Assembly: GCA_030145325.1 (NCBI GenBank)
Contig: JAQYVW010000014.1
Coordinates: forward strand, 1-56,750
Length of the DNA stretch: 56,750 nucleotides
Reading direction: 5' to 3'
Source: Desulfurivibrionaceae bacterium
GTDB taxonomy: Bacteria; Desulfobacterota; Desulfobulbia; Desulfobulbales; UBA5123
The notes beneath the pieces were generated by a model. The model saw nothing but the letters and a program-made list of their open reading frames with translations. It did not search any database and had not been told where the DNA came from. The position numbers and the translations under genes were made by a program. Position 1 is the stretch's first letter, and every line of letters begins with the position of its first letter. Below, one piece after another: positions 2,088-16,927 of this stretch.

Positions 2088-4979
2088 TTATTTCTCAGCG
2101 GCCAACAGTGCGGCGGCAATCCTTGATTCTTTAATGGGCAGGGTAATGGTGAAGCAGGTTCCTTGTTTTAATCCTGCACTATTTACTTTTAACGTGCCAT
2201 GGTGCATTTCGACAAGGGTTTTAGTTAACGGCAAGCCCAGACCGGTGCCTGGGGTTTTGCCGCGATATTCATTTTTGACCTGATAGAACGGTTCAAATAT
2301 TCGGGATAGGTCTTCTGCGTCGATGCCGATGCCGGTGTCGCAAATGCTGATCAGGAGAGTATCTTGGCGTCGAAGCATGGATACATTGATGCTGCCGTTG
2401 TCAGGGGTGAATTTAACGGCGTTGGTAAGGAGATTGAGAAATACCAGTTTTATTTTTCGTTCATCGATGTCGATAATGAGGTTTTCTATCTCTGGGTCGA
2501 TATTAACATTGATGGCAATGGCGTGTTGTGCGGCTCGGTCTTTGATTATGGCCAGGCTTTGTGTCATGAGTATGGATATTTGGGCTGGCATGGTGGAAAA
2601 CGGCATTTTCCCTGACTCGATCTTGGCCAGGTCAAGGATGTCGTTGATAATGGACAGTTGGTGATTGCCACCATCCCTGATCTCCTTGGTGTAGCCCAGT
2701 TGTTTTTCATTTAGAGGGCCGAAGTGTTGTTCTTGTAAAACGGTGGCGAAGCCGATGATGGCGTTTAGCGGGGTGCGCAGTTCGTGGCTAATGTTGGCAA
2801 GAAAACGACTTTTTGCTTTATTGGCGCTTTCTGCGGCTTCCTTGGCCAGAGCAAGGGCCTTTTCCGCCCGCTGGCGTAATATCTCTCCCGAGGTGCGGTT
2901 GGAAAAAATATGGAAAATCTCGTTGAGATGGGTGATTTTTGTAAGCGGCGCGTCATGCATGGCGCAAAGGATGCCGATGGTGTCGCCACTGGTGTTACAA
3001 AGGGGGATGCCGGCGTAGAATTTCACATTCATATCCTGGAGCATTTGGTCGTTGGCAAATATCTCGGCGACGTGGTCTTCATAAAGGCAAAATCCCTTCT
3101 GGCTGACCATTTCGCAAGGGGTATCGGTGGTGGAGTAATTAACCGGTTCTGCTAAGGCAGTGTCGTTCCAGAAGGCAAGGCCGGTTACCTCGGTTGCTGA
3201 ATCCGGCATGATTTCTCCCACCATTACATATTTGGTGCCGAGACATTTTGCCAGCTGCTCGGCCATGGTGGCAAAGAATTGTTCACCGGTAACAGCGGCG
3301 GTGCCCAGTAGTAGGCGGTGGACGGATTCATCCGTCCGTTGGCGCTGAATGGCGAGGGCGAAGAGGGTCGCGATTCTGTTGATCGCTCCGAGATCTCGTT
3401 CCGTGTATTCCTGTTCGCTGTTTGCCAGGGCGACAATTCCCACCAGTTCATCGTTGATCATTGCCGGCACCGATAGGAAGCGCTGGATGGTGACCTTTTC
3501 TGAGGGCAATTTGTTGGCGGGGAGGGCTTTTTTGGGGGTGTTGGTAAGAATAGTTTGATGGTTGTCGATGACTTCTCGCCACAGTTCGGCACATTGATTG
3601 AAAATAATCTCCTCCTCGTCCTGTTTGTCTTTCGCTGCAATGTCGTTGCTAATGGTGGGGAAGACGAGGTTGCCGTTATCGTTGTCGATGTAGCCGGCAA
3701 AGGAAAAACGGCTGTGGGTCAGCATTCGGGCCTTAGCAATTATTGACTCGGTAACCTCTTCTATGGATATTTCTGAGAGTAGACTTCCTGAGAGTTCTGC
3801 CAGGGCGCTGTCCTGTTCGGCTCGGCGGAGGATGAATTCTTCCTTCTGTTCCCTGGCGATGAGCGCGTCCTGTTCGGCGGTTTTTCGTTTCAGCAGCGCC
3901 CAGGTAATGAGTAAGGCGCTTAAAATTGCGCCTTGGGTGAGTAGGGTGAAAAGTTTGATGAAGTGATTATTGGTTTGGGCGGTTAATTCTTTGATCTGCT
4001 GTGGAGTAACGCGGGAGATGAGGAGCCATGGATAGAGTTTGTTCTGGCTGGCTTCCTGTTGCGGGCTTTTTCTTAAAAACTTAATGGGGTCGATGCGCTG
4101 AAAGTTGAAAAACCCGTTTGCGGTAAAGAAGCTGCCTGTTTCCTGGGCAGCCATTTTTTGCCACGCTTCAGGAAAGGAGTTTTGAAAGACGCGTTTTATG
4201 CCGGCGGGATCCATGAAGCCCCACGCTTCTCCTTCGTTGGGGCTGAAGAGCCAGTATCCGTCGGCATTGATGAGCATGAGTTCGCCGAAGGTATTATTTG
4301 CTTCGGCTGCGATCTTGGCAAGGAGTTGGCTTGCCTGATAGTTTAGTAAGATAATCCCTTTTTTTTGCCCACGGGAATTGAAAATCGGGGTGCCGAAACG
4401 GATCATCGGTTTCAATGGGTATTCTATTTTGCCGTGTTCCAGGTTGAGGTCCAAGGGAGAGGTGAAAATTGAGTTTTCAGGTAATTGCATGGAATCTTGG
4501 AAGTAATAGCGGTTGCCTTTGTTTTGCAGGTCTTTTTCAGCTGTTAGGGCAGGGGAGCCGTGGTTGAAATTGACCCGAACTTTTTCCTGACCATTGGCGG
4601 CAATGAGACGGATTTGATCGTAAGTGCCTTTGTTTTTGCTGTGCAGGATAAATTCTTGGCCCACACTAGCAAGGATGCTACTGTCGTTGCTGTCAACGTA
4701 GTGCCGAATTTCATTTTGCCCGGCCAGAACACGAAGGTCACTGACGATGGTTTGAAATTCCCTGTTGATCTGCTTCTGTTCTTTTGCAAGGTGTTGTGAA
4801 GCAATGGTTTTGATTTCGACCACAATGGCATCGCGCTCCAGTCGGTAAAACTGCCAGAGGGTTAGGGCCAGTAAGATAAGCAACGGTGTAAGGATGATCA
4901 GGAAATATTTGATGGGGCGCAGACGGAAGGATGCTGTTGTGCCGTCAAGGCCTGATGGTGGCAGGGCGTTAATTTTCAT
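2088..4979 (-). CDS. Membrane sensor histidine kinase, Cache-GAF-GAF-HisKA-HATPase
   Basis: A 963-residue kinase. A first membrane segment (about 25-45) is followed by a roughly 300-residue periplasmic double-Cache-like sensor region, a second membrane segment (about 355-380), two GAF-like regions (about 410-720) and the kinase core. The core shows the phospho-acceptor H-box ISHELRTPLNAIIG, the N-box LLTNAVKFTP, and the G-boxes CDTGIGID and GTGLGLPL. There is no receiver domain, so the phosphate should pass to the separate HD-GYP regulator 37 bases downstream. The start MKINALPP is preferred to an upstream in-frame codon at 5051 because the membrane segment then sits at a normal distance from the N-terminus. 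The ligand is unknown; Cache domains often bind small organic molecules. Confidence 0.88.
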   Translation of the reverse strand: MKINALPPSGLDGTTASFRLRPIKYFLIILTPLLILLALTLWQFYRLERDAIVVEIKTIASQHLAKEQKQINREFQTIVSDLRVLAGQNEIRHYVDSNDSSILASVGQEFILHSKNKGTYDQIRLIAANGQEKVRVNFNHGSPALTAEKDLQNKGNRYYFQDSMQLPENSIFTSPLDLNLEHGKIEYPLKPMIRFGTPIFNSRGQKKGIILLNYQASQLLAKIAAEANNTFGELMLINADGYWLFSPNEGEAWGFMDPAGIKRVFQNSFPEAWQKMAAQETGSFFTANGFFNFQRIDPIKFLRKSPQQEASQNKLYPWLLISRVTPQQIKELTAQTNNHFIKLFTLLTQGAILSALLITWALLKRKTAEQDALIAREQKEEFILRRAEQDSALAELSGSLLSEISIEEVTESIIAKARMLTHSRFSFAGYIDNDNGNLVFPTISNDIAAKDKQDEEEIIFNQCAELWREVIDNHQTILTNTPKKALPANKLPSEKVTIQRFLSVPAMINDELVGIVALANSEQEYTERDLGAINRIATLFALAIQRQRTDESVHRLLLGTAAVTGEQFFATMAEQLAKCLGTKYVMVGEIMPDSATEVTGLAFWNDTALAEPVNYSTTDTPCEMVSQKGFCLYEDHVAEIFANDQMLQDMNVKFYAGIPLCNTSGDTIGILCAMHDAPLTKITHLNEIFHIFSNRTSGEILRQRAEKALALAKEAAESANKAKSRFLANISHELRTPLNAIIGFATVLQEQHFGPLNEKQLGYTKEIRDGGNHQLSIINDILDLAKIESGKMPFSTMPAQISILMTQSLAIIKDRAAQHAIAINVNIDPEIENLIIDIDERKIKLVFLNLLTNAVKFTPDNGSINVSMLRRQDTLLISICDTGIGIDAEDLSRIFEPFYQVKNEYRGKTPGTGLGLPLTKTLVEMHHGTLKVNSAGLKQGTCFTITLPIKESRIAAALLAAEK

Positions 4980-5086
4980 GGGGTCATTCCCAGGATGGCT
5001 GCGGCGATTTTCATAACGATATATTGTCTGGGCTGTGGCGCCCAATGTCAAGCAACCGGTGGTTTGCCAAGGGCCGGTTGAAGTCC

Positions 5087-6382
5087 CTAGCGTAACGGTG
5101 GGTTGAAATAGCCAAAGCGTAGTTTTGGGAAATTTCGTTGCATTTCTTTATGCCAGTGGCGGATGCCCATGGGTCCGCGTCTGTCGGTGTGTTGCATGGC
5201 TTCAAGATACCAGTCGGGATCGATGTTTAGATTTCTAAGCTGAATAAAATCCGGCTTTTCGGTCTCGACAAGTTCACAGAGGGCCGCGAATTCCTCTGGG
5301 TCGTCGGTGAATCCCGGCAGAACAAAGTAGTTAAGGGAGACAAATCTGCCCGCCTTTTTCATCGTCGCGATGGATTGGCGAACGTCGTTAAAGGTAAAAC
5401 CCTTGGGGCGAAAGTAGCGTTGGTGATATTCGGGGCGGGCGCTGCTCATGCTCACCCGAATGCTGTCCAGGCCGGCATGGGCAAGACGCGCCACCGCTTC
5501 CGGCAGGCTGGCGTTGCTGTTTAAATTGACGGTGCCGTTATTGGTTCCTTTGCGAATCAGCCGGATCGCTTTCTCGATGGTGTCGGCTTGCAGGAGTGGT
5601 TCGCCTTCGCATCCCTGACCGAAACTGACCACTCCACTGGGTACCCTTTGTAAGTGCGGAACCGCCACTTCGGCGATTTCGTTGGCCGTCGGCACAAAAC
5701 GAATTCGATCTTGGGTGGAGGGGCAGCAACCAGATGGCTGTAGTGAGATGCATCCGAGACAGCGGGCGTTACATTCCGGCGAGGTGGGAAGTGGCGCTTC
5801 ATATTGGTTGAGAAAGTAATTTTTGGCCGCCGGACAGCTGTAGGTAAGACTACAGTTGCCTAGATGCTGGACAAGCCTGTTTTGAGGCAAGGTCTTGAGG
5901 CGTTTTTGAGTGCTGGTTGTGATTTTGGCGGGGTCAAAGCCCAGGGGTTCTTGGCGAAGGTCTTCATCGCTGCGGAAGCCGCTCACCCAGAAGCGTCCCT
6001 CGTGCCAACCCACCGCCGTGTAGGCAAAGAGCGGTAATGTCTCGGCGTCGTCGTTTTTCACAAAAGCGGCGGTGTGGATGGCGGTATGGGCCGGGGCCAT
6101 AAAGGCTGCCACCGCCTGAATTTCTTCGCCGGGCTCATCTGGGTTTTCGGCAAGCAGAGATGGCTCATGGCTGTTTGCTTCAAAGCCCACCGGTTTTCTC
6201 CCTGGCAGGACGAACAGTTCGCTTCCTTCCGGCAGGGGGATCAAATCTTGTAATTCTGGCTTCTGGTAGAGACTGCCGCTGCGGCCAGCCATTTCTAATT
6301 CTGGAAAATCTTTGATCTCTCCGTGTTGGTTTGCATAAACCAGTCGGGGTGTTTGGCGCGGATGGATGGGGGGGGTAGGCAT
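5087..6382 (-). CDS. Radical SAM protein with CxxxCxxC iron-sulfur site
   Basis: A 431-residue protein. An N-terminal region of about 200 residues precedes the radical SAM core, which starts with C204, C208 and C211 (CNARCLGC), the ligands of the 4Fe-4S cluster that cleaves S-adenosylmethionine. Extra cysteines C177, C183, C219 and C220 flank the motif and might bind a second cluster or zinc. The core continues with FGQGCEGEP and a barrel-like region ending near residue 425. The reaction is not identifiable. No convincing Shine-Dalgarno precedes ATG 6382. It lies 107 bases upstream of the sensor kinase on the same strand, but nothing shows a functional link. Confidence 0.8.
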   Translation of the reverse strand: MPTPPIHPRQTPRLVYANQHGEIKDFPELEMAGRSGSLYQKPELQDLIPLPEGSELFVLPGRKPVGFEANSHEPSLLAENPDEPGEEIQAVAAFMAPAHTAIHTAAFVKNDDAETLPLFAYTAVGWHEGRFWVSGFRSDEDLRQEPLGFDPAKITTSTQKRLKTLPQNRLVQHLGNCSLTYSCPAAKNYFLNQYEAPLPTSPECNARCLGCISLQPSGCCPSTQDRIRFVPTANEIAEVAVPHLQRVPSGVVSFGQGCEGEPLLQADTIEKAIRLIRKGTNNGTVNLNSNASLPEAVARLAHAGLDSIRVSMSSARPEYHQRYFRPKGFTFNDVRQSIATMKKAGRFVSLNYFVLPGFTDDPEEFAALCELVETEKPDFIQLRNLNIDPDWYLEAMQHTDRRGPMGIRHWHKEMQRNFPKLRFGYFNPPLR

Positions 6383-6847
6383 GGCGGCTATGAATTCTCA
6401 ATGATTATGGATGGTTGCCAGTATTACTGATTGCTTGCTGGTGTCATGTTTATAGAGTTGGTATATTACTCGCCTGGCCGGGAAAGGAAAGCGGAAAAGA
6501 TAGTTTGAGTTTTGCAGGTAATTTTGTATGGTAATCGCTCTTTATGGGCCGGAGGCTAGTGTTACTTCAACTCTGTAACGCCTCGTCTTGATAGATAATT
6601 TTTACATCTGCGTCCTTACAACTTGAATCACATAGCATAACTATGTTCTCCAAGTTGTGCTTGTTGTGCAAAAAAAATCGTTGCACAACTTTACGGCATT
6701 TCATCCTTGCCGCGATACTAGGGGCGATGGAGGGAAAAAGACAGGAAGTTTGGGGGGGGGGCAGATGGTCGGTGCGAGCAAGGTATTGCGGTGGCATTTT
6801 TCCCCCGGCCCTGTTGGGCAAGGCCGAGGAGGCAAGGGGGCTCGCTG
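6383..6847. other. Intergenic region, no convincing gene
   Basis: About 465 bases between two minus-strand genes. An 84-codon frame at 6567-6821 looks spurious: low-complexity composition, no recognisable motif and an overlap with the structured element. The region holds the hairpin cluster at 6618-6691 and a run of ten G at 6752-6761, which would be prone to slippage. Confidence 0.6.
6618..6691. repeat. Overlapping inverted repeats able to form mutually exclusive hairpins
   Basis: ACAACTTG (6618-6625) pairs with CAAGTTGT (6651-6658) around an inner stem ACATAG/CTATGT (6630-6635, 6641-6646). A second hairpin TTGTGCAA (6664-6671) / TTGCACAA (6681-6688) follows. AAGTTGTGC (6652-6660) can instead pair with GCACAACTT (6683-6691), which would break both. 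The pairings are read directly from sequence; a role such as attenuator, small RNA or protein-binding site is inference. Confidence 0.5.
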
Positions 6848-7273
6848 TTAACGGTGCCGGATCCTTGAGAATACCGCATCCACTGCTTTGTAAATGGTGG
6901 CATCATCGCCGAAGATATCCTGGACATTGGGGTGGTCGAGAAGATCCTCAATGATGTACTGGGTGAAGTAGAGACTCAGGAAGTTGGGATCGTTGACGAT
7001 TCCTCGGAGCGGCGCAACCTTGAAGTTGATCTCGAATTCTTCCATCTCAGTGAGATTTCTCATCTGTTTGGCGAACAGTTCCTTGATGGCGCGGTCGGAG
7101 TTTGTTTCGATGATGTGCTCGTCCAGCAGATGTTGGAGCAGTTTGGTGGCCAGTTCCTCGGCGTGTTCGTAAGCCGCATGGAGCATGTTTTTACGTTCTT
7201 GCTCGCGTTTGCGGTCTATTGATCGGATTGCTTTGTCTGCTGCGGTGTTTGAATAGTTACCGTGGTGGCCCAT
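6848..7273 (-). CDS. Conserved-looking hypothetical protein, helical, 141 residues
   Basis: I do not recognise this family. The protein is charged and predicted mainly helical, with no membrane segment and no signal peptide. The start ATG 7273 is supported by a strong purine-rich ribosome site (AGGGGGAAAACC before ATG). It is transcribed divergently from the small sulfite reductase gene at 7432, with 158 bases between the starts. That arrangement permits shared regulation but does not demonstrate it. The C-terminal half (LYFTQYIIEDLLDHPNVQ) resembles nothing I can name with confidence. Confidence 0.65.
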   Translation of the reverse strand: MGHHGNYSNTAADKAIRSIDRKREQERKNMLHAAYEHAEELATKLLQHLLDEHIIETNSDRAIKELFAKQMRNLTEMEEFEINFKVAPLRGIVNDPNFLSLYFTQYIIEDLLDHPNVQDIFGDDATIYKAVDAVFSRIRHR

Positions 7274-7431
7274 GGTTTTCCCCCTGCGTATATGATAGTC
7301 GTACCCTGAAATTTAAGACTTTTCTTTCCCGATAGATACAGGAAAATAGCGGAAAGGGAAAGGATAAATCGGTAGATAACGCACAGTTCGTGCATATTTG
7401 TTAATTTGCGATAAAGAAAGAGGAAAAAATC

Positions 7432-8061
7432 ATGAGTACCATTCATTCCACTGCGCCACACGAGAAGTCGTTAACCCTTCTGTTGGTGGCTGGTCGCCTG
7501 CCTTTGCCGTTGATGGCCAAGGTGCTGGAGGTGGCTGAACGCTACCGTCTCGGCGTTTATTTCTCCACCGCCCAGAATTTGCGGCTGTTGGGGATCAACG
7601 ACGAGGATTTCGATGCGATCAAGGCCGAACTGGCTCCGCTGGGCGCCAACTTCAAGGGGCCGGGCAAGTTCCCCTTGCCCAAGGTTTGCATCGGTAAGCC
7701 TTCCTGTAATATGGGGGTGATTGATCCTGCCGAGCTTTCGGCGAGAATTCTCGAACGATTCGGCCATCGGACCGGGGTCAAGGGCAAGTTCAAGATTGCC
7801 ATCTCCGGTTGCATCCTCAATTGCAGTGGGGCGTTGCTTGCCGATATCGGCGTGGTTGCCACCAGGAATGGTTTTGATCTCTATAGCGGTGGCAAGGGTG
7901 GGCCTTACCCCAAGGTGGGGCAGCGTGTGTTGCGGGATGTCCGTGAGGTGGAGATCCTCGACGCCATAGAGAAAATGGTTGATTTTCATGATGCCAAGAC
8001 GGTCAAAAAGCAACGGATGGTCAAGCTTCACGACCATCCTGACTTTCCTTTTTCTGAGTAG
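7432..8061 (+). CDS. Small siroheme/4Fe-4S sulfite reductase, assimilatory type
   Basis: A 209-residue protein with one ferredoxin-like half domain followed by the siroheme-4Fe-4S domain. The cluster ligands are C86 and C92 (CIGKPSC) and C127 and C131 (CILNC), the Cx5C...Cx3C pattern of sulfite and nitrite reductases. Its length matches the single-subunit, roughly 27-kDa assimilatory-type sulfite reductases described from Desulfovibrio, far shorter than dissimilatory DsrA or DsrB. It should reduce sulfite (or nitrite) by six electrons to sulfide in the cytoplasm. An AGAGGA ribosome site lies 8 bases before the ATG. No dedicated electron-donor gene is adjacent. The stop codon abuts a degenerate mobile repeat. 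Confidence 0.85.
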   Translation: MSTIHSTAPHEKSLTLLLVAGRLPLPLMAKVLEVAERYRLGVYFSTAQNLRLLGINDEDFDAIKAELAPLGANFKGPGKFPLPKVCIGKPSCNMGVIDPAELSARILERFGHRTGVKGKFKIAISGCILNCSGALLADIGVVATRNGFDLYSGGKGGPYPKVGQRVLRDVREVEILDAIEKMVDFHDAKTVKKQRMVKLHDHPDFPFSE

Positions 8062-13884: not shown

Positions 13885-14226
13885 ATGATCAATCGTGCCG
13901 TCCTGATTTTGAAGCTGAAGAAGCCTTTTGTGCAGTGGATCAACGAAACGGATCCTAATAATAAATTGCCAGAGGTCACCATGGCCCAGGCCAACCGGGA
14001 ACGCACCGTTTATCTGCTCAATGATTTGGATGCGGAAGGCTTGGATGAATGGATTGAGCTCAACTGTGCCAACCTGTTTGAAAGCGAACTTGAGGATTGG
14101 TACACCGACCAATCCCTCTGGCCGCAGAGCCGGGACATGAAGTTGTTCAAAAAATGGTTTGCCCCCGAATGCCACCCGGTGCTCATTGATGCCGGTTTTG
14201 GGCCGATTGTTGACGACGGGCTGTGA
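13885..14226 (+). CDS. Hypothetical protein, 113 residues, acidic
   Basis: I do not recognise the family by name. The protein is acidic and tryptophan-rich, with EDWYTDQSLWPQ and FKKWFAPECHPVLIDAG, and has no signal peptide or membrane segment. It looks like a small globular cytoplasmic protein. AGGA lies about 8 bases before the ATG. A palindromic operator-like site lies upstream, suggesting regulated expression. The good codon structure and the ribosome site argue that it is a real gene; the opposite-strand frame across it does not look like a protein. Confidence 0.65.
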   Translation: MINRAVLILKLKKPFVQWINETDPNNKLPEVTMAQANRERTVYLLNDLDAEGLDEWIELNCANLFESELEDWYTDQSLWPQSRDMKLFKKWFAPECHPVLIDAGFGPIVDDGL

Positions 14227-14239
14227 AAGGGGGGCGGTT

Positions 14240-14485
14240 CTACACTAAAACCGAGAACCCGCCCGGTCGTTTGGGTGTTTCTTCCTGCTGGTCAGCCTCC
14301 CTGGCGGAGGCTGACTTTGGGGACTGCGCTGGCTGGGCGAGCTTGAAATCCGCGTAAAACTCCTGGCCGCAGGAGGGGCAGGCCAGGAGCATGCCGCCGA
14401 TATGATCCGGGAAGCGCAACTGCTGGTCGCATTGGGGGCAGATCTTAATGGTTTCTTCCGGTACCGGAGGTTGGGGGAGTCGCAT
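14240..14485 (-). CDS. Small zinc-ribbon protein
   Basis: An 81-residue frame with two CxxC pairs, C16/C19 (CPQC) and C36/C39 (CPSCG), spaced as in zinc-ribbon domains such as the MJ0042-type fingers. The intervening sequence LRFPDHIGG is also typical. The last third is polar and Lys/Glu/Pro-rich. No good ribosome site precedes ATG 14485, so the start is uncertain. It ends 13 bases from the end of the convergent gene at 13885-14226. Function unknown; a nucleic-acid or protein-binding role is only a guess. Confidence 0.5.
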   Translation of the reverse strand: MRLPQPPVPEETIKICPQCDQQLRFPDHIGGMLLACPSCGQEFYADFKLAQPAQSPKSASAREADQQEETPKRPGGFSVLV

Positions 14486-14750
14486 GTACTCATAAAAAAC
14501 TATGGTGGGCTGGATGGCAAGAAGTTTAAATGATACTGGTGGCGGCCCGGTGATCTGGTTCGCTACCAGACGCTCATTTCCCCGTTTCCGGCTGAGTGCG
14601 ACAAGCGATAGGGAATCGGGATGGTGTTGGCAAAGGAAAGTTCGGTGTCGTCTTTGCCACCCCTGGCGGGAGTTGATTGGAAAATGACAGACCCCGCCCG
14701 GTAATTCTGAAATGCGCTGCTCTTGATTTGGGCGATAAAGGAGGCATGCC

Positions 14751-14806
14751 CACCGGGGGGGCTCTTTCTACTGGTTGAGCCCCTCCGGTGCAGGATTCTT
14801 TTTTTT
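14751..14806 (+). terminator. Strong GC-rich hairpin followed by a T-run, orphan terminator-like
   Basis: CACCGGGGGGGCTC (14751-14764) pairs with GAGCCCCTCCGGTG (14777-14790) over 14 bp with one G-U pair. Eight T follow at 14799-14806 after a short gap. No plus-strand gene ends just before it, so it may insulate the downstream defence-like operon or end a small RNA. Confidence 0.5.
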
Positions 14807-14846
14807 CACAAGACCTTGATCATATTGGCATATGTTAGCAGCAGGA

Positions 14847-14874
14847 TTGATTTTTATATCGAAGGCAGTATCAT
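14847..14874 (+). promoter_or_regulatory. Possible sigma-70 promoter for the AAA/DUF4276 operon
   Basis: TTGATT (14847-14852) and TATCAT (14869-14874) are separated by 16 bases, matching 4/6 and 5/6 of consensus, about 108 bases before the ATG at 14983. Confidence 0.35.
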
Positions 14875-14982
14875 TGGAAAGAATTTACCGGGGTTCGGGT
14901 GCTAGCAAAAAAATAGGTTCTTAATGGATCTGTTTTCATCGACAGAAGGACTCAAGGCTGAGGATGGGTTGGGGAGAACAGC

Positions 14983-16170
14983 ATGAAAATTGAAGCGATA
15001 CGATTGAAGAATTTTAAAGCTTTTCAGGATGCGGAGTTGACGGATATTCCCAGTCTCTGTGTGGTGGTTGGTGCGAACGGGACCGGGAAAAGCACAATTT
15101 TCAGCGTGTTCGGTTTTCTTCGCGATGCCTTGACCTCCAATGTTAACACGGCGCTCATGAAGTTGGGCGGCAGCCGGGGGATTAAAGAGGTGCGCAGCCG
15201 GAATGCCAACGGGCCCATCGAGATAGAATTGAAATTTCGTGCCAAGCCGGACAGCCCGCTGACTACTTATTTTCTGCAGATTAACGAAAAGGGCGGCAAG
15301 GCCTTGGTGGAAAGGGAGATCCTTAAATATCGACGTGGCAGTAGTGGCCAACCGTGGCATTTTTTGGATTTTTCCAAGGGGAGGGGGACGGCGGTCACCA
15401 ACGAACTTGATTCGGTAACGGATGTGGGAGACCTTAATCGTGAGGAGCAGGTTCTGAAATCCCCTGATATCCTCGCCATCAAGGGGCTGGCGCAATTTGA
15501 ACGGTTTCCTGCCGTGATGGCGTTGGGCAATCTCATTGAAAATTGGCACGTCTCGGATTTTCACATCAGCAAGGCTCGACCGGAACAGGAAGCCGGCTAT
15601 GCGGAAAATCTGTCGCGCGAGGGAGAAAATCTTTCGTTGGTGATTCAATATCTGCACAGTAATCATCCCGAAGTCTTTGAGAGGATACTGGATCTTCTTA
15701 AAAAAAGAGTACCGGGGATTTTAGATGTGGATTCCAAGACCACCGAAGAAGGGCGGGTGCTGTTGAAGTTTCAGGACGGGGTGTTTGAAGATCCTTTTCT
15801 TGCTCGCTATGTGTCGGATGGCACCATAAAGATGCTGGCCTACCTCACCCTGCTCTACGATCCCAACCCTCATCCGTTGCTATGCGTAGAGGAGCCAGAG
15901 AATCAACTTTATCCCAAACTTCTATGGGAACTCGCTGAGGAGTTTCGCTCTTACGCCAATCGCGGCGGGCAAGTTTTTGTTTCCACCCATTCGCCGGATT
16001 TTCTTAACGCTGCAAGGCTTGAGGAGGTTTTCTGGCTGGTCAAGACTGACGGCTACACGCAGATCTGTCGCGCAAAGGATGACGTGCAGCTTGCGACCTA
16101 TATGGCAGAAGGCGATCAGATGGGATATCTCTGGGAGCAGGGTTTCTTTGTGGGGGCTGACCCCCGATGA
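14983..16170 (+). CDS. AAA-family (ABC/SMC-like) ATPase of a putative two-gene defence system
   Basis: A 395-residue ATPase. The N-terminus IEAIRLKNFKAF is the typical opening of RecF/SMC-like AAA ATPases. Walker A is GANGTGKST (30-38), Walker B is LLCVEEPENQLYP and the switch histidine lies in FVSTHSPDFL. The central region is helical and variable, as in RloA, OLD and PtuA-type proteins. It overlaps the next gene, a DUF4276 protein, by four bases (ATGA), which implies translational coupling and joint function. ATPase plus TOPRIM-like nuclease pairs (PARIS, Gabija, RloAB-like) act in phage defence, so that role is inferred here. A GGGGAGAA ribosome site precedes the ATG. Confidence 0.85.
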   Translation: MKIEAIRLKNFKAFQDAELTDIPSLCVVVGANGTGKSTIFSVFGFLRDALTSNVNTALMKLGGSRGIKEVRSRNANGPIEIELKFRAKPDSPLTTYFLQINEKGGKALVEREILKYRRGSSGQPWHFLDFSKGRGTAVTNELDSVTDVGDLNREEQVLKSPDILAIKGLAQFERFPAVMALGNLIENWHVSDFHISKARPEQEAGYAENLSREGENLSLVIQYLHSNHPEVFERILDLLKKRVPGILDVDSKTTEEGRVLLKFQDGVFEDPFLARYVSDGTIKMLAYLTLLYDPNPHPLLCVEEPENQLYPKLLWELAEEFRSYANRGGQVFVSTHSPDFLNAARLEEVFWLVKTDGYTQICRAKDDVQLATYMAEGDQMGYLWEQGFFVGADPR

Positions 16171-16727
16171 AAACCATCGTATTTTTTTTGGAAGAGCCCT
16201 CGGCGCGAGAAATGCTCGAAGGGGTTTTGCCGCGACTGCTTCCTGATAATATTCAGATTCGATACTTGGTGTTCAAAGGTAAGCAGGATTTGGAGAAAAA
16301 TATGACAAGGAAGCTGCGTGGTTGGCAACTGCCTGATTCTGTTTTTGTGGTGATGCGAGACCAGGACTCGGGAGATTGTCGGGCGATAAAATCTAAATTG
16401 GCCGACCTCTGCCGTTTGGCTGGACGAGAAGGTGTGTTGCTCAGAGTTGCTTGTCGGGAATTGGAAAGCTTTTACCTGGGCGATTTGGCAGCGGTTGAAC
16501 AAGGTCTTGGTCTCAAGGGATTGAAGGTTCAGCAGGAGAGAAAAAAATTCAGGGAACCGGATAGCTTAGGGAGTCCTTCCGTAGAACTTGAGAAGTTGAC
16601 CCAAAAAGTTTATCAGAAGGTTGCCGGTTCCCGTGCGATTGCACCTTTCTTGAGCCTTGAGGGAAATCGTTCCCGAAGTTTCAATGTTCTTGTCTCTGGA
16701 ATCAAAAAAGTTGTTTCTGTCTCGTGA
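16167..16727 (+). CDS. DUF4276 family protein, TOPRIM-like putative nuclease
   Basis: A 186-residue protein whose layout fits DUF4276. An N-terminal strand is followed by E9/E10 (LEEPSARE), then an acidic motif D65-x-D67 with D70 (RDQDSGDC), and the conserved CRELESFYLGD. The early glutamate plus the DxD motif resemble the metal-binding site of TOPRIM domains, which cut or join nucleic acid phosphodiesters. The gene starts inside the last codons of the ATPase gene, so the two products are probably made in fixed ratio and form a complex. Nuclease activity and phage defence are inference. The operon ends here; a T-rich segment follows before the next gene. Confidence 0.8.
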   Translation: MKTIVFFLEEPSAREMLEGVLPRLLPDNIQIRYLVFKGKQDLEKNMTRKLRGWQLPDSVFVVMRDQDSGDCRAIKSKLADLCRLAGREGVLLRVACRELESFYLGDLAAVEQGLGLKGLKVQQERKKFREPDSLGSPSVELEKLTQKVYQKVAGSRAIAPFLSLEGNRSRSFNVLVSGIKKVVSVS

Positions 16728-16856
16728 TGGGAAAGGAGACTTCCGCAATACGACATTTTTTTCCTGATCAAGAGATTATTCCCTTTCATCATCCCTGAAA
16801 ATCTTGTTGTGTCTTCTGCTCCCGGTTGCCAAAAGGGCGGGTTCGGTGTACCTTTG

Positions 16857-16907: not shown

Positions 16908-16927
16908 GTTTTTAAGGAGAAGTGGAA

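Follow-up and report, generated by a model that had tools for sequence, protein, structure and literature searches.

What does a compact pair of overlapping genes, encoding an ATPase and a DUF4276 protein, do between the housekeeping genes of a Desulfurivibrionaceae bacterium, and is it a defence system? The window, i.e. the whole stretch of DNA that was analysed, comprises 56,750 nucleotides (contig JAQYVW010000014.1, assembly GCA_030145325.1). An interpretation made earlier from its letters without database searches (the sequence-only reading) had proposed a compact two-gene candidate defence system, related to ATPase plus TOPRIM or OLD-type nuclease pairs and inserted at this place. The two-gene unit, its insertion, its mobility and a predicted TOPRIM fold of the second protein stood up in the present analysis, but the system already has a name, HEC-01, in PADLOC. 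The features discussed below are as follows.

14227..16819, no strand assigned: variable segment, replaced by about 90 bp in a genome of the same genus (G002); defined from loci L036 (G002) and L037 (G001)
about 14751..14798, plus strand: hairpin plus U-tract resembling an intrinsic terminator, located ahead of the pair; minimum free energy -36.2 kcal/mol, z -4.05
14983..16170, plus strand: HEC-01 ATPase gene, 395 aa, OLD/Rad50-type ABC ATPase (AAA_21)
16167..16170, plus strand: ATGA overlap, the DUF4276 start lying inside the ATPase gene stop
16167..16727, plus strand: HEC-01 DUF4276 gene, 186 aa, predicted TOPRIM nuclease-like effector
16826..16854, plus strand: conserved promoter (TTGCCA-17-TACCTT) belonging to the FAD oxidoreductase gene that follows; right edge of the variable segment

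The gene pair and its assignment to HEC-01

Both ORFs and their ATGA overlap, as proposed from the letters, were recovered exactly (14983-16170 and 16167-16727). The first protein matches Pfam AAA_21 (2e-31) and AAA_15 (4e-22) and carries Walker A (GANGTGKST, residues 30-38) and a Walker B region (LLCVEEPE, 299-306), in agreement with its earlier description as an SMC/RecF-like ATPase with intact Walker motifs; a sequence resembling the signature motif, VSDGT (277-281), is present as well, as is the H-loop histidine H336, and the majority of these motifs are invariant among 76 homologues. The second protein matches DUF4276/PF14103 at 44 bits (cut-off 30.2). The GC content of the pair (0.51 for the ATPase gene and 0.47 for the DUF4276 gene vs 0.52 for the window) is slightly low in the DUF4276 gene only and is not counted as evidence.

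When the two proteins were compared with the PADLOC models, both HEC-01 components were matched: the ATPase by PDLC04144 (679 bits, E = 5e-205, positions 1-395 of 395) and the DUF4276 protein by PDLC04143 (285 bits, E = 5e-86, positions 1-184 of 190), and the two genes are adjacent in one operon. Eleven PADLOC families matched the DUF4276 protein at E values up to 10, every one of them HEC-01. Judged by these matches, the pair belongs to the already catalogued candidate anti-phage system HEC-01, is not a new kind of system, and is probably a real defence module. HEC-01 is said to be Hma-embedded candidate 1 of PADLOC-DB 2.0 and of the Payne et al. 2024 preprint. The HEC (Hma-embedded candidate) set was found through "guilt by embedding" (PMC12988326, citing the Payne et al. 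2024 preprint), and HEC-01 is listed in passing as a detected system in a paper on Desulfovibrio piger (PMC12724379). In the open-access literature searched, the defining preprint lying outside that search, we found no report of a HEC-01 mechanism and no mention of DUF4276 by name. In this subfamily the A/B labels of PADLOC have apparently been exchanged: the ATPase model PDLC04144 bears the name HEC-01B and the DUF4276 model PDLC04143 the name HEC-01A, whereas in the remaining models HEC-01A corresponds to the ATPase and HEC-01B to DUF4276.

The ATPase and DUF4276 genes are one unit and their pairing is obligate, because the gene order is constant and the distances of the two proteins are correlated. 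In a survey based on DUF4276 only (80 GTDB loci plus 3 viral contigs from IMG-VR), an ATPase gene lies directly upstream on the same strand at 83/83 loci, overlapping by 4 bp in 57 and by 1 bp in 14; either the ATPase or the DUF4276 frame is broken at L071 and at L116, resulting in a larger measured gap. The same order is found at 11/11 DUF4276 loci of same-order relatives, a few of which are also among the 83, and the ATPase and DUF4276 distances correlate with a Mantel r of 0.46, a value reached by 0/2000 permutations. At two loci (L051 9456-10014 in G014 and L049 4642-5202 in G034) the DUF4276 gene is interrupted or frameshifted and the ATPase gene is intact, which could be the loss of a costly effector or an assembly error.

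Insertion site, horizontal transfer and genomic context

The variable segment contains a zinc-ribbon-like ORF (14240-14485, minus strand), the terminator and the HEC-01 pair. The upstream gene (13885-14226) and the FAD oxidoreductase gene (starting at 16922) are about 200 bp apart in G002 vs 2.7 kb here, and the absence of the pair from the same site in this same-genus genome bears out the proposed insertion between housekeeping genes; a distant copy (43% ATPase identity) is found elsewhere in G002. G001, also of the same genus, has no pair; instead, genes for a nucleotidyltransferase and a HepT-like protein, together with a 1262-aa ORF, reach almost to the FAD oxidoreductase promoter, whose pattern TTGCCA-N17-TAnnTT is common to G000, G001 and G002 (alignment by eye). 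The cargo at the site upstream of this promoter differs from species to species. Fixation at the same locus in all relatives, which the sequence-only reading had named as counting against it, was not what we found, the site being empty in G002 and otherwise occupied in G001. In the G001 locus (L037, reverse strand, 3041-6829 and 6902-7562), the nucleotidyltransferase is PDC-S09-like in PADLOC, and the 1262-aa protein gave no Pfam or PADLOC match.

The terminator reported upstream of the pair was found as a strong hairpin (z -4.05), the 14-bp stem of which (CACCGGGGGGGCUC/GAGCCCCUCCGGUG) is followed by the U-tract UUCUUUUUUUU; among shuffled sequences, 1/200 folds equally well. The promoter that had been assigned to the pair did not hold up: the site at 14847-14874 matches at 9/12 positions, which is at chance level (3 such sites in the region vs 2.5 expected by chance), and it was rejected. 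The 81-aa zinc-ribbon-like ORF located between that upstream gene (13885-14226) and the HEC-01 pair had no relative in any compared locus. The stretch 14590-14757 (minus strand) is weakly similar (75% over 75 bp; 37% identity at the protein level) to a gene for a PHP/UvrD-like helicase, of which G002 has an intact version nearby (L036 1604-4834), and is possibly a decayed remnant.

By sequence comparison the pair is mobile and horizontally acquired, because the copies most similar to it belong to other families and phyla, with identities far above those of the flanking housekeeping genes. In G018, which belongs to another family, the ATPase is 87% and the DUF4276 protein 79% identical, whereas the flanking FAD oxidoreductase reaches 71% and the thioredoxin gene 54%; the corresponding values for G005, also of another family, are 87% and 73% vs 70% and 53%. 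Copies with 79-84% ATPase identity were found in Synergistota, Nitrospirae, Chlorobiaceae and Bacillota (some phylum labels come from MAG contigs that could be mis-binned, the Synergistota copy being on a complete chromosome). Any homologue of the pair is present in 10/58 genomes, its own genome counted. Deletion in G002 alone was rejected as an explanation, since it cannot account for the high-identity copies in other families and phyla. We found no shared DNA flanks beyond the ORFs that would mark a mobile unit; homologues occur in 7/72,556 plasmid records, and there was no match among 50,697 phage records.

Around other copies, 100 nearest-neighbour proteins included model matches to HmaB (7), HmaC (4), type I (3) and type III methyltransferases (3), so that about 17/100 match Hma or restriction-modification (R-M) models and the rest are mostly ordinary genes. 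The defence enrichment is modest, and strong enrichment is not claimed, because the majority of homologues lie between ordinary genes and control genes 5-8 kb away also have scattered defence-model matches. In this neighbourhood survey, of a kind suggested by the sequence-only reading, some copies stand beside Hma or R-M genes. The HEC-01 module occurs both embedded and solo, and it is solo here: the copy is not part of a recognised defence island, and a search of the genome carrying it found no HmaB. One pair in G026 (L050 1-7033; 74% and 50% identical) is flanked, with near-abutting borders, by two long ORFs of 825 and 931 aa resembling R-M modification and restriction genes.

Predicted folds and candidate active site

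The AlphaFold2 model of the ATPase (pLDDT 90.8) gave Z scores of about 20 to the PtuA, Rad50 and SMC heads, and a profile search of the PDB placed PtuA, TsOLD, Eco8 OLD and GajA ahead of SMC/Rad50. For the DUF4276 protein, a phmmer search of the PDB gave one meaningless ribosomal match and a profile search only designed proteins, i.e. no match at the sequence level. Its AlphaFold2 model, built with 87 homologues (pLDDT 95.5), has the order b1(2-8)-a-b2(29-35)-a-b3(58-65)-a-b4(91-95) followed by helices, and displays the hallmarks of a TOPRIM domain: a predicted four-stranded sheet with helices, E9 after b1, G38 after b2 (81/87) and D65xD67 at the end of b3; in addition, E98xE100 is located at b4. 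In Foldseek, the sole match below 1e-3 among the matches listed was the TOPRIM region of BpOLD, the Burkholderia OLD protein (6nk8, 8e-5), and in VIA-align the Z scores were 12.1 for BpOLD (6nk8), 10.6 for XccOLD and 10.3 for TsOLD, with unrelated rows at 8.0 or lower. AriB was not among the best 50 structural matches listed. On the basis of the model, we assign DUF4276 with high confidence to a predicted TOPRIM domain; a different fold had been named in advance as evidence against the defence proposal, but prediction gives the TOPRIM fold and, with it, the acidic residues that such a fold should carry. An uncharacterised archaeal structure, PH0156 of Pyrococcus horikoshii (PDB 2p62), aligned with the model at Z 9.5 over 166 residues and may be a solved distant relative of DUF4276.

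The acidic positions pointed out by the sequence-only reading (E9/E10 and DxD) are indeed conserved, E9, D65 and D67 showing no variation among 87 homologues, the most diverged of which share 27% identity, and E10 being E in 83/87. E98, E100, G105 and D106 were part of the motif used for GTDB retrieval and their invariance in the large set is biased accordingly; they are also invariant in 11 relatives retrieved without the motif. The metal ligands of OLD nucleases are E, DxD and (T/S)xE, namely E400, D455 and D457 and E404, T506 and E508, with K562, in BpOLD, and D381, S478 and E480 for the second set in TsOLD (PMC6755086, PMC7049728). The first BpOLD set, E400, D455 and D457, has its obvious counterparts in E9, D65 and D67, and E98-x-E100 plausibly matches T506-x-E508, as inferred from order and spacing; the acidic metal-B ligand at i+4 in OLD (E404/D381) has no counterpart in DUF4276, where residue 13 is mostly Ala. 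E9, D65, D67, E98 and E100 are termed candidate metal ligands.

Proposed function, alternatives and relation to known systems

We propose, with a probability of roughly two in three, that this mobile HEC-01 module of two genes encodes a split OLD-type, ATPase-gated nuclease for phage defence, which would work like PARIS but is not PARIS. The ABC ATPase would dimerise in the manner of SMC/Rad50 and either restrain or position the TOPRIM protein DUF4276; upon sensing of an infection signal, the ATPase would release or activate the DUF4276 subunit, which would cut nucleic acid by two-metal catalysis using E9, D65, D67 and probably E98/E100, and the cleavage of DNA or RNA would stop phage replication, perhaps at the cell's cost. 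The gene pair itself, its constant linkage, its mobility, the predicted TOPRIM fold and the conservation of the acidic residues are what the analysis shows; complex formation, ATPase gating, nuclease activity, the substrate and phage defence are properties that we infer for the HEC-01 pair. Points that weigh against the proposal are the setting of this copy outside a defence island, the modest neighbourhood enrichment, the lack of a PDB match for DUF4276 at the sequence level, the missing i+4 acid and the retrieval bias in the invariance of E98/E100.

The obligate two-gene overlap, the wide horizontal spread without an integrase and the solo placement in ordinary intergenic sites would also suit a toxin-antitoxin-like addiction pair, in which the ATPase neutralises a DUF4276 toxin, maintenance is selfish and phage defence is incidental; the Pfam description of AAA_21 ("putative AbiEii toxin, type IV TA") reads the same way, although a label is not a test, and PARIS itself behaves partly like a toxin-antitoxin addiction pair. 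We give this explanation a minor chance, as the system is a catalogued defence candidate that adjoins Hma/R-M loci in several genomes, and as the pair is rare on plasmids and unmatched among the phage records. An accessory DNA repair or recombination pair, with a Rad50/RecF-like ATPase and a RecR/DnaG-like TOPRIM partner serving no defence function, might be suspected from the resemblance of the ATPase head to Rad50/SMC and from the occurrence of TOPRIM domains in RecR, DnaG and topoisomerases (PMC6755086). The sporadic presence and cross-phylum transfer, the defence ATPases as nearest sequences and the specific match of the TOPRIM fold to OLD make it improbable. The missing i+4 metal-B ligand could mean that DUF4276 is a TOPRIM fold devoid of nuclease activity, acting as a structural or nucleotide-binding partner of an effector ATPase, but the invariance of E9, D65 and D67 over such diverged homologues argues the other way, and we regard this as very improbable.

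A more specific form of the split-nuclease proposal, which we hold to be speculative and rather unlikely, is that HEC-01 constitutes a distinct split OLD class whose TOPRIM effector has an active-site layout of its own (E9, DxD and ExE, without the acid at i+4) and that it serves as a guard, set off by phages that inactivate restriction or Hma/R-M systems, in the way PARIS responds to Ocr. Some HEC-01 copies adjoin Hma, type I and type III R-M genes, and a guard function, if true, would explain the copies embedded in such loci vs those travelling alone. The system itself being already catalogued, the useful additions of this work are the model-based TOPRIM assignment of DUF4276 and the empty-site comparison. 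The former gives a family still listed as unknown by Pfam an active site that can be tested and, as predicted from the model, a likely role as a nuclease, and the latter offers natural comparison genomes within one genus, with an empty and an otherwise occupied site. The pair is widespread across phyla, so that a mechanism established for a single copy would help to annotate hundreds of others.

Among known systems, Septu/retron PtuA is nearest to the ATPase by sequence profile and Foldseek, but its partner is the HNH nuclease PtuB, whereas the partner here is a predicted TOPRIM protein. The score against MAD3 of MADS was 121 bits, below the NCBIfam equivalog cut-off of 420, and as regards RloAB-like pairs, Pfam gave DUF4276 alone above cut-off for the second gene. 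OLD class 1/2 proteins (TsOLD, BpOLD, XccOLD, and GajA of Gabija) share with the pair the TOPRIM fold (predicted for DUF4276), the E/DxD/xE residues and the OLD-type ABC ATPase, but here the ATPase and TOPRIM parts are on separate proteins and DUF4276 is devoid of the i+4 acid. Gabija or OLD class 2 identity was rejected: the genes are not fused, no GajB helicase lies beside them and the next downstream gene encodes the FAD oxidoreductase. PARIS ("class 4 OLD"), consisting of the AriA ABC ATPase and the AriB TOPRIM nuclease, has the same two-gene OLD-type ATPase/TOPRIM split (PMC10568477, PMC12839542, PMC12409363), a similarity of kind and not of membership. In PARIS, a phage trigger sensed by AriA releases AriB, which cuts tRNA (PMC12409363, PMC12839542), and by analogy the logic proposed for HEC-01 would be alike, with an ATPase sensor and a nuclease. 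The TOPRIM partner here is DUF4276, for which no AriB model matched at E values up to 10, and PARIS identity was rejected for this reason; the ATPase matches AriA models weakly (104 vs 679 bits for HEC-01). HEC-01 itself agrees with the pair in full-length model matches for both proteins and in adjacent overlapping genes; it differs in setting, the copy described here being solo between housekeeping genes with no surrounding Hma cluster. HEC-01 was discovered through Hma embedding, whereas the majority of the copies surveyed in this work are not embedded.
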